In this document: one piece after another, positions 21,483-24,407 of the stretch | How the letters are laid out: each line of letters opens with the position of its first letter | How positions within the stretch are numbered: the first letter of the stretch is position 1 | NCBI RefSeq assembly: GCF_035083965.1 | Contig: NC_089735.1 | Location: 6,412,001 to 6,476,000 of the forward strand | Source of the DNA: Branchiostoma lanceolatum | Lineage: Eukaryota; Chordata; Leptocardii; Amphioxiformes; Branchiostomatidae | Reading direction: 5' to 3' | DNA length: 64,000 nt | Translations under genes and position numbers: made by a program | Notes under the pieces: model-generated | Databases searched by the model: none | Seen by the model: the letters and a program-made list of their open reading frames with translations, nothing else | Told to the model about the DNA's origin: nothing

Positions 21483-24407
21483 CTACCTTGCCAGAGAAAC
21501 CTGCCATACACGGATCAGATTATCAGTGTAGCCCGCGAACAGAGTCTGGCCATCAGCTGACCAGGCCAGGGAGATGCACTGGGGTGGTCGGGCCTTCGGA
21601 CTGGTGGAGATGATCTCAGGTCGCAGCTCATCCACGATGATTTTACCTTCCAGATCCTGAAACACAGTGGAATAATACATGTTCATGGGGGACGTCATCC
21701 TCATCAAAAATATCACACAACTTGCCTATCTTGTATCCTCATAATTGCAGGACTTTGTCCACACACAGTATGTTCAGTCTTGTCTTAATCACTGGACTAC
21801 AAGTGCACACATATGGACTGAAAAAAAACTCAGTCTTGACAGCATTTTCCCCGAACTTCTGCTACATGATAAACATCGCCTTTACATGTTTTGCATGCAG
21901 TATAGAAGAGTGCTCCTTACCCAGATCTTGATGGTAGGGCCGGTGGCAGCACACAGCCAGTAGCGGTTGGGGCTGAAGCACAAGGCGTTGATCTCATCGG
22001 TACCGTCCAGGGTGTACAGATGCTTCCCCTCGTTCAGGTCCCACAGCATGGCGTTGCTGTCCTGTGTGCAAACGACAGACGTGTTTATTATCGTATTCAG
22101 CAGCTACATAAATGGGTCTTCAGTACTCTTCACAGCTACATGCTTTGTGGGTAATATGCCAAAGATTCAAGGTGAAGTCCAACTGACTTTATAAACAGTT
22201 TTTGTCTCTACTATGCTTTATAGTGGTTATACATGTTCTGACTGTCAATAAGTTTGCATAAATGTTTAGTTTATGACTTAGGGGCCTTCACCTTTCACAT
22301 ATTACACACCAAGCATTTTGCTTCACATGAACCTCCTAACATACGTGACAAAGTATCTGGACTTTGAATCCAAAAGATCTATGTGAAGTGAGATAGGGAG
22401 AAGGTCCATTACCTTGCCTCCAGAAGCACACAGGGAGCCATCGGGGGACACAGTCACGGCGTTGAGATAACCCATATGTCCGATATGGTTTGTCTTCAAC
22501 TTGCAGTTGGTCAGGTTCCAAACCTTGACCAGCTTGTCCCATCCGCAGGACACGATGATGGGGTTCTGGTTGTTCGGGGAGAACCTGACGCAGGACGTCC
22601 ACTCGGTGTGCCCATCCTCCTGTAACAGACAACCACACAATAAGATCAACAACAGAACTCAATCACAGTAGCACATTAGCCTTGTAGTTAAGGGTTGTTG
22701 ACCCAGAATGTTAAGGTCCTGGGATTTTTTGGATCGTTACAAGTTGCACATCTCGTATCCTCATAATTGCAGGACAATGTCCACACAGCAGGTTCAGACT
22801 TGTCTTAATCATTGGACTGCAACTGCACAAATAAGACAACACAATTACAGGAGGTACAAAGAAACAATGGTTTACATGGCTAAAATACCACTTAGGTTCA
22901 TCTGCATGAAAAAATGAGTCTCTAACAAAGACGGTAGCACTGCCCTTTTTCATCTTTAAGTATGGGCATGGTATTGCAACCATCAATTGCAACGGGAGTA
23001 GAGTGGATTATTGCAACCATCAAAGGCCCCTGACCTGGATAGTGTACTTGCAGACTCCCAGGGTATTCCACAGCTTGATGGTCTTGTCGCGGGATCCAGA
23101 CACAATCTGACGGTTGTCAGCAGAAAAGGCAACGCTCAGAACATCCTTGGTGTGTCCGACGAACCGGCGAGTGGTGGTCGCCCTGCAAGAGAAAGACACA
23201 GTCTAGTCATATCCGCTTAATCTAAAAGATTTCCACTATAGACAAAGGAAAGGTCCTCATTAAAGTGTATGGTGTCTACAGATGCTTCAGAGAGCAAAAG
23301 GGTAAACTAAAATCATTGGACCATTGAACACAAACAACATGGCACTGACAACTTCCATCACACCAATGTTCATGATAAACTATTTGCTTCGTATCATAAG
23401 CAGGTTTACGGTTTGAACTGCGCATTGGCGAGATCAAAGGAGAAGGCCCATAAATTGTAAACAGTTTGTCTAGACCATGCTTGATATGTCCAGATGTGTT
23501 TAACTTTTATTTATATCTCAAGGGCCTTCAACTTTGACATATTACCCACAAAACACACTGCACATGCGCCATTCAAACTGTGAACCAGTTTATTCCAGAG
23601 ACGCTGACTTACGTATTGAGATCCCAAAGACGGAGGGTGTGATCCCAGGACCCAGAGAGGGCAAACTGACCGTCAGACGAGATGACCACATCCGACACAA
23701 AGTGGGAGTGACCATTCAGGCACTTGTAGGGGATGCCGTAGTTGTTTTCATCGCGGGTCAGCTTCCAAACAATGATGGACTCATCTGTATGCACAATACC
23801 GACATTTAGTGCATTGAAGTAGAGAGACAAAACTTATCAATTTCATTACATCTAAGCAGCAAGTACAGGAACTGTTACTCATACATACTGTTCTCATTTG
23901 CCATATCTGCACTCTTGTCTTAGACCCCCCCCCCCCACACACACAAATATTACCCTCACGAAATAATCATTATGTTCAACAAACAGCAACTGGTCTACAG
24001 ATCCAGACCATCAAACTATGAGTGTTGCGGGGAAATATAGTATTTTGTGTGAAGCGGTAGGACTGCACGAGTTGAAAAAAAATTATAATTTTGAGGGGGG
24101 GGTCAAAAAGTTGCTTGATGACCGTCTCCCTTAATTCAGAATGAAATCTAACAGCCCATACAGGAAATTATGTAGTTCTTGGCATATATTCTACCTAGAA
24201 ACCAGAACAGCGAATTCAATAGGAATATGCGTATATAAGGTACACGTTTCAAGATGGGCTGCACAGTGCACAAAAAAATGGTGACGATCCCATACCTCGG
24301 GATGCCGACAGAATCATGTCGGGATGCTGGGGTGTCGTGGCGATCTGAGTGACCCAATTCCCGTGGCCCTTTAGGGTACCACGTAGGGTCATTTGTTCCA
24401 TAGCCAT
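21483..24407 (-). CDS. RACK1: RACK1, seven-bladed WD40 scaffold of the 40S ribosome
   Basis: Six exons on the minus strand (24407-24296, 23784-23613, 23182-23035, 22619-22413, 22061-21921, 21656-21483) give 317 residues, the same length as human RACK1. Blade signatures are all present: [47 protein letters not shown], the motif [46 protein letters not shown] and [17 protein letters not shown]1 sits on the small ribosomal subunit near the mRNA exit and binds protein kinase C and other signalling proteins. The start at 24407 ([12 protein letters not shown]) fits the vertebrate N terminus plus its usual second Met. A pyrimidine tract at 24497-24508 could be a 5' TOP transcription start, as expected for a ribosomal gene. 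Introns 3 and 5 carry snoRNAs. Confidence 0.98.
21730..21803 (-). ncRNA. SNORD96: SNORD96-type box C/D snoRNA, copy in RACK1 intron 5
   Basis: Read on the minus strand: terminal stem CTTGTAGTCC/GGATACAAG with one bulge, C box GTGATTA (21792-21786), internal D'-like CTGA, then guide GTCCTGCAATT (21753-21743) directly before a D box ATGA (21742-21739). The guide is complementary to AATTGCAGGAC of 5.8S rRNA. The fifth base before the D box pairs with the G after AAUU, which is the site SNORD96 methylates in human 5.8S (G75). Human SNORD96A also lies in a RACK1 intron. The stem ends about 73 nt before the 3' splice site, the usual spacing for intronic C/D snoRNAs. Both boxes differ from consensus (RUGAUGA, CUGA) in a compensating way. 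Confidence 0.85.
22752..22825 (-). ncRNA. SNORD96: SNORD96-type box C/D snoRNA, second copy in RACK1 intron 3
   Basis: Aligns along its whole length with the copy in intron 5: C box ATGATTA (22812-22806), D'-like CTGA, guide TGTCCTGCAATT (22776-22765, one base longer match to 5.8S than the other copy) and D box ATGA (22764-22761). The terminal stem is weaker here (TCC/GGA plus imperfect outer pairs), and it lies 132 nt from the 3' splice site. It may be the less expressed copy. Confidence 0.8.

Follow-up and report, generated by a model that had tools for sequence, protein, structure and literature searches.

The closest described system is SNORD96A (U96A; Rfam RF00055), a human RNA of 72 nt that lies in an intron of GNB2L1 (RACK1) and whose predicted modification is Gm75 of 5.8S rRNA, its ends being given by published primers as CCTGGTGATGACAGATGGCA and ACATGTCCTGCAATTCTGAAGG (PMC7812721). 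U96A has been placed in intron 2 of RACK1 and U95 in intron 1 (PMC3941584). The chicken snoRNA paper lists U95 in GNB2L1 intron 6, and the term "U96" is absent from its main text (PMC2653536), as "SNORD96" is from the main text of PMC5006418. Methylation of the target site is reported in plants, where Gm79 corresponds to human Gm75, and fly 5.8S rRNA is reported to carry Gm74, which is probably the same base. A literature search, with most subscription papers outside its reach, retrieved no paper on SNORD96 in lancelets.

The window, meaning here the whole 64-kb stretch of lancelet DNA that was analysed, carries two elements of about 62 nt (63 and 61 nt in their predicted mature forms) on the minus strand, copy 1 in intron 5 and copy 2 in intron 3 of a RACK1 gene (Table 1). 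The host gene was identified from the translations of its exons and from the joined protein, whose top PDB matches were RACK1 chains (best E 3.6e-193). Read 5' to 3' on the minus strand, both copies consist of GUCC, A, the C box RUGAUUA, a D' box CUGA, a presumed C' box GUGUGGA, the guide GUCCUGCAAUU, the D box AUGA and GGAU. The C box agrees with the consensus RUGAUGA at 6 of 7 letters (G6 is U) and the D box with CUGA at 3 of 4 (C1 is A), the latter lying exactly at its expected place, directly behind the guide. Mature ends were predicted by the rule of PMC4053766, which places them 4-5 nt ahead of the C box and 2-5 nt beyond the D box. Copy 1 is about 80 nt away from the 3' splice site, which was counted in favour of a snoRNA. 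These results bear out the original prediction on several points: the span that it gave (21739..22812) is bounded exactly by copy 1's D box and copy 2's C box, the boxes RUGAUUA and AUGA stand in both copies where it had placed them, and the elements do sit in RACK1 introns.

Table 1. Positions of the host gene, its introns and the two SNORD96-type elements, numbered from the first letter of the window
Feature	Position	Strand	Basis or remark
RACK1 host gene, 6 coding exons	21486..24406	minus	exon translations, splice sites read by eye
RACK1 intron 1	roughly 24295-23785	minus	splice sites by eye
RACK1 intron 2	roughly 23612-23183	minus	splice sites by eye
RACK1 intron 3	roughly 23034-22620	minus	splice sites by eye
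RACK1 intron 4	roughly 22412-22062	minus	splice sites by eye
RACK1 intron 5	roughly 21920-21657	minus	splice sites by eye
Copy 1, predicted mature SNORD96-type C/D snoRNA, 63 nt	21735..21797	minus	GUCC before C box to GGAU after D box, intron 5
Copy 1, C box GUGAUUA (GTGATTA), G6 to U	21786..21792	minus	sole candidate with 4-pair stem at guide
Copy 1, D' box CUGA	21774..21777	minus	within CTGAAC 21772-21777, assigned by position
Copy 1, presumed C' box GUGUGGA, 2 mismatches to RUGAUGA	21758..21764	minus	assigned by position
Copy 1, guide GUCCUGCAAUU (DNA letters GTCCTGCAATT)	21743..21753	minus	identical to human SNORD96A guide
Copy 1, D box AUGA (ATGA), C1 to A	21739..21742	minus	sole D-like word near guide's end
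Copy 2, predicted mature SNORD96-type C/D snoRNA, 61 nt	22757..22817	minus	intron 3; boxes, guide, stem
Copy 2, C box AUGAUUA (ATGATTA)	22806..22812	minus	box scan
Copy 2, D' box CUGA	22794..22797	minus	within CTGAAC 22792-22797, assigned by position
Copy 2, presumed C' box GUGUGGA	22780..22786	minus	assigned by position
Copy 2, guide GUCCUGCAAUU	22765..22775	minus	sequence match
Copy 2, D box AUGA (ATGA)	22761..22764	minus	box scan

Introns 4 and 2 of the same gene (22064-22412 and 23185-23611), which alternate with the introns 3 and 5 that hold the two copies, share a duplicated foldback of their own, whose appearance suggests either a small foldback transposon or a structured RNA. The repeat (D3) matches at 78% over 51 nt and the inverted arms at 92% over 24 nt, and a fold of about -48 kcal/mol is predicted for each. 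The gene lies between two coding stretches of the plus strand, one up to 20756, which from its translated letters, read by eye, resembles a KAT2/GCN5 bromodomain end, and one from 24820, which by the same kind of reading resembles the start of a PP2A catalytic subunit. Elsewhere in the window, tandem arrays were found at 4108-5193, 51068-51410 and 63102-63688, which consist of several blocks of 32-nt units, a perfect duplication of 170 nt and 8.4 copies of a 70-nt unit.

The guide of the human RNA was read from the published reverse primer, and all 11 letters of GUCCUGCAAUU are identical to it (11/11); the number G75 of the target, in human numbering, is taken from PMC7812721, the lancelet's own 5.8S sequence lying outside the window. 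From the guide to the end, either copy agrees with the human 3' end ACATGTCCTGCAATTCTGAAGG at 15 of 18 letters. The SNORD96-type assignment of the guide thus stands, the guide being identical and the host gene the same as that of mammalian U96A. What the elements share with SNORD96A is therefore the guide, the D box directly behind it, the host gene and the predicted target, 5.8S Gm75. They differ from it in their boxes (GUGAUGA and CUGA in human, RUGAUUA and AUGA here), in length (72 nt in human against the predicted 63 and 61 nt) and in number and place, since the single human copy occupies intron 2 whereas the two copies described here occupy introns 3 and 5, so that the intron differs although the host is shared. 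By the exon primers of PMC3941584, the counterpart of mammalian intron 2 is the window's intron 2, which holds no copy. The guide occurs twice in the 64-kb window, in copy 1 and copy 2; a candidate third copy in intron 1 (19 nt at 84%) was rejected because its surroundings contain no readable box pair and the guide is confined to those two occurrences. Both copies have GGAC...GUCC just before the guide (minus strand, 21754-21763 and 22776-22785), which would allow the 5' part of the guide to pair with the letters preceding it; the published 3' end of human SNORD96A also has ACATGTCC (PMC7812721), and such pairing could compete with pairing to the rRNA.

Searches with Rfam models were performed at three scopes. 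The whole window at gathering score gave one match, a histone stem-loop, and no SNORD96; positions 17000-27000 at E values up to 10 gave 7 matches, none of them on the elements; and each element alone, at E up to 10, gave 1 and 4 matches, none being SNORD96 (RF00055). Assignment to SNORD96 is accordingly founded on guide, position and host gene and not on the family model. The match common to both elements was Tetrahymena TtnuCD34 (RF02308), which has a similar guide, CUGCAAU; it differs in having UGAUGA-type and CUGA boxes, and its scores, 10.5 and 13.7 bits where the gathering score is 80, do not amount to membership. The histone match, a 3' UTR stem-loop at 5258-5304 on the minus strand, scored 34.5 bits, barely over its gathering score of 34. 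The expectation that consensus-based searches would miss the elements is upheld in part: Rfam did not return SNORD96, but the Hamming distances of the boxes are just C=1 and D=1. The stated first pseudogene filter of SnoBIRD is C>=2 and D>=1, and going by that rule it would not by itself reject elements with C=1 and D=1.

Consensus boxes overlooked near the guides were searched for in both introns, D-like words being defined as those with 3 or 4 of 4 matches to CTGA between -3 and +12 nt from the guide's end, and C-like words as those upstream with at least 5 of 7 matches, three being listed per intron. ATGA was the only D-like word at the guide's end in both introns (2/2). Among the three C-like words listed per intron, the reported C box had the top score (6/7) and was the only one able to form more than one stem I pair against ATGA, with four pairs. 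No overlooked consensus box was therefore found at the guide in either of these two introns. Two other pairings were set aside as lying away from the guide: the pair ATGAGGA/TTGA in intron 3 (102 nt apart, 3 stem pairs), and, in intron 5, the reported C box combined with another ATGA, which lies at 21704-21701 at a distance of 88 nt and allows 4 stem pairs. Separately, ATGATAA and TTGA at positions 21866-21931 of the plus strand, antisense to RACK1, make up a C/D-like pair whose stem has 8 contiguous base pairs, probably a product of chance. A DNA pattern of the form TGATKA ... TCCTGCAATTMTGA had 21 matches in viral contigs, a collection without animals, none of which was taken as a snoRNA on inspection by eye and of which three (L001, L002 and L006) are an identical sequence; a stricter pattern had 4 matches in prokaryote genomes, all in bacterial records and again in a collection without animals, so that neither result bears on lancelets.

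The terminal pairing of both copies comprises 4 contiguous stem I pairs (GUCC/GGAU), a 3-nt bulge (A-R-U), G·A, A·G and U·U, followed by U-A, A-U and A-U, stem II starting with U6-A1 and possibly continuing with A7-U(-1) and A8-U(-2). C-box position 6 and D-box position 1 are both altered and form a Watson-Crick U6-A1 pair in both copies, to be counted as one event. The replacement of G-C by U-A with the G·A core kept, which was the central claim of the original prediction, is thus found in exact K-turn register in both copies; the K-turn is recognised here as a pairing pattern, and the minimum-energy fold of both copies prefers another helix. The stem I pair beside the bulge is C-G, the commonest pair at that place in human box C/D K-turns (65.27%; PMC5579392). 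Control of the K-turn by m6A is not expected, because the D box is followed by G and not C (GAC rule, PMC5579392).

FRET measurements on K-turns describe effects of the closing pairs that are small and additive, U-A not being among the exchanged pairs described, and kinking driven by L7Ae in every variant to which it was given (PMC5689011). According to Kuhn et al. 2002, as cited in PMC6461891, L7 binding is reduced by single changes at the C6 and D1 positions and regained with the double change. Given this L7Ae-driven kinking and the rescue by the double mutant, 15.5K would by analogy likely bind the swapped K-turn. An archaeal structure shows sequence-specific contacts of Nop5 to the C of box D and to the last GA of box C, its authors tying the C of box D to target choice and not to the level of methylation (PMC5389607). 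Recognition of the swapped boxes by Nop58 would be less certain than binding by 15.5K, since U-A keeps the shape but not the letters that Nop5 contacts.

The explanation that we prefer, and consider probable, is that both elements are intron-encoded SNORD96-type box C/D snoRNAs with a compensated terminal K-turn guiding methylation of 5.8S G75. It builds on what was observed of the sequence, the geometry, the identity of the guide, the host gene and the duplication, and it predicts for both copies transcription, K-turn folding, snoRNP assembly and methylation. After splicing of RACK1, the debranched intron would be trimmed to the C/D core, and the terminal K-turn would form from stem I GUCC/GGAU, the A-R-U bulge, the sheared G·A and A·G pairs, U·U and a stem II beginning at U6-A1. 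15.5K/Snu13 would bind the unchanged G·A core, Nop58, Nop56 and fibrillarin would then assemble, and the guide GUCCUGCAAUU would direct 2'-O-methylation at the fifth base upstream of the D box, which in 5.8S is the guanosine corresponding to human G75. The swap would have had a single origin, preceding the copying of the element into a second intron. This explanation is weakened by the fact that the copies are duplicates of one event, by the ease with which the two positions pair by chance, by the loss of the letters contacted by Nop5, by a competing helix, by the lack of a SNORD96 match in Rfam and by the different intron.

Chance occurrence of the motif was estimated in two ways. On both strands of the window, RTGATNA ... 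NTGA with at least 4 stem pairs occurs 8 times, 3 of these involving the elements; the box motif alone is weak evidence, since it is not rare by itself in the window. For a simulation, a Markov model was trained on four RACK1 introns and used to generate 200,000 sequences, with the position of the guide end fixed. Of these sequences, 5,906 carried NTGA at the place so defined, 268 of the 5,906 also carried RTGATNA at 36-75 nt, and in 63 of the 268 (about 1 in 4) the C6 and D1 positions formed a Watson-Crick pair. The U-A pair alone therefore carries little weight and could be due to chance. The requirement of a Watson-Crick C6:D1 pair together with at least 4 stem I pairs left, with the guide given, one sequence in 200,000, which argues that the boxes and stem at the guide are not a chance arrangement and that the boxes belong to a genuine C/D-like element.

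Copy 1 and copy 2 share 84.5% identity over 97 nt; no other long match was found in the search of the window. Intragenic copying of snoRNAs between introns has been described in chicken (PMC2653536). Most simply, the swap was one ancestral event that preceded the duplication. The occurrence of the swap in two copies had been offered as support for its function; as the copies are duplicates, it is not an independent replication, and the argument is not supported in that form. Within the 63 columns of the copy-to-copy alignment, none of the 8 differing columns falls in the 25 box and guide columns (P=0.013), these core columns having been picked by the analyst with the alignment in view and 2 of the 8 differing columns being gaps; we read this as a mild sign of possible constraint on the boxes and guide.

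Predicted folds of both copies were no better than those of shuffled sequences (z -1.17 and -0.92), which counts against a working RNA. In the minimum-energy fold of either copy, the C box is paired with the stretch where the guide ends and the D box starts, and a K-turn-compatible fold costs 4.4 and 6.6 kcal/mol more than this minimum; with consensus boxes written in, the additional cost is 1.3 and 1.9 kcal/mol. In the folding model, the swapped boxes would thus create a competing helix. This result is a warning and not a disproof, because the model credits neither non-canonical or K-turn pairs nor bound protein. The outer terminal stem differs between the copies: copy 2 lacks two pairs of the copy 1 stem, its direct outer stem being the weaker of the two and its outer pairing not the same.

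Such features could also be those of decaying SNORD96 copies, whose boxes have degenerated, whose pairing at C6/D1 is a coincidence, and whose methylation has been lost or is guided by a copy elsewhere. This is the alternative that survives best, and we judge it unlikely. It is favoured by the two box deviations, by the disrupted outer stem of copy 2, by the missing Rfam match and the competing fold, and by the frequency of C6/D1 pairing in random RTGATNA/NTGA sets (63 of 268), which makes that pairing weak evidence; however, although the copies differ in about 15% of the element, they have the guide, D', C core and D box in common, and the same swapped letters, guide and inner stem are not expected in two copies decaying independently.

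The altered D box raises a further alternative, a functional snoRNA in which the swap alters the choice of target, the D box being read as AUGA or UAUGA, a double reading already proposed for the D' box of yeast U18, with methylation at G75 and C76. Neither D1 nor the base preceding it is C, the elements reading UUAUGA in the same register, and the (U)AUGA D' box of yeast U18 directs two adjacent methylations, of which the second is reduced by changing A1 to C (PMC5389607). U18, however, relies in part on an extra C' nucleotide that is absent here, its box is a D' and not a terminal D, and a single site is favoured because, with G6U, the 4-nt register acquires an ordinary Watson-Crick pair; altered targeting is accordingly held to be improbable. 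Still somewhat less probable is the conjecture that this lineage has fixed the AUGAUUA/AUGA motif in SNORD96, the U-A pair and an AU-only stem II being read by a tolerant or co-evolved Nop58 and the choice of target being shifted or widened so that C76 is methylated beside G75, the second methyl group being thought unlikely because the extra C' nucleotide of U18 is lacking. A chance match of two copies of a non-snoRNA intronic repeat to 5.8S rRNA, which could appeal to the few 11-nt matches to 5.8S expected in a window of this size (by our own arithmetic) and to the other duplicated foldback in introns 2 and 4, is very improbable given that host gene and guide are those of SNORD96A and that the guide lies directly against the D box in exact K-turn register, an arrangement reached once in 200,000 simulated sequences.

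If the RNA is made and works, the preferred explanation would provide an animal terminal C/D K-turn with U-A for the closing G-C pair, a natural counterpart of the archaeal double mutant. It would help to distinguish the requirements of 15.5K, namely the G·A core and any pair, from the letters recognised by Nop58, namely the C and GA, and would demonstrate that orthologues are lost by rules based on box consensus.

Three described systems resemble the terminal motif of the two elements. Dictyostelium C/D snoRNAs, compared by the D box alone, have AUGA as D box in a small fraction (PMC8817022). The C'/D' motif of yeast U18 has a D'-type AUGA preceded by U, and differs in being internal, in having a C' box AUGAGUGA with an extra nucleotide and in serving two adjacent target sites (PMC5389607). 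The nearest parallel is provided by GtNM-R12, R13 and R14 of the Guillardia theta nucleomorph, which were found among sRNA loci and carry the same compensatory AUGAUU/AUGA in their terminal boxes with the tandem G·A kept; their guides and organism are unrelated, and section 19 of that paper reports no relation to SNORD96 (PMC6461891). The compensatory swap of terminal boxes is thus already in print, and as a claim to a new mechanism the present case is therefore modest; what is new, as far as the literature search shows, is the paired swap in an animal SNORD96-type RNA.
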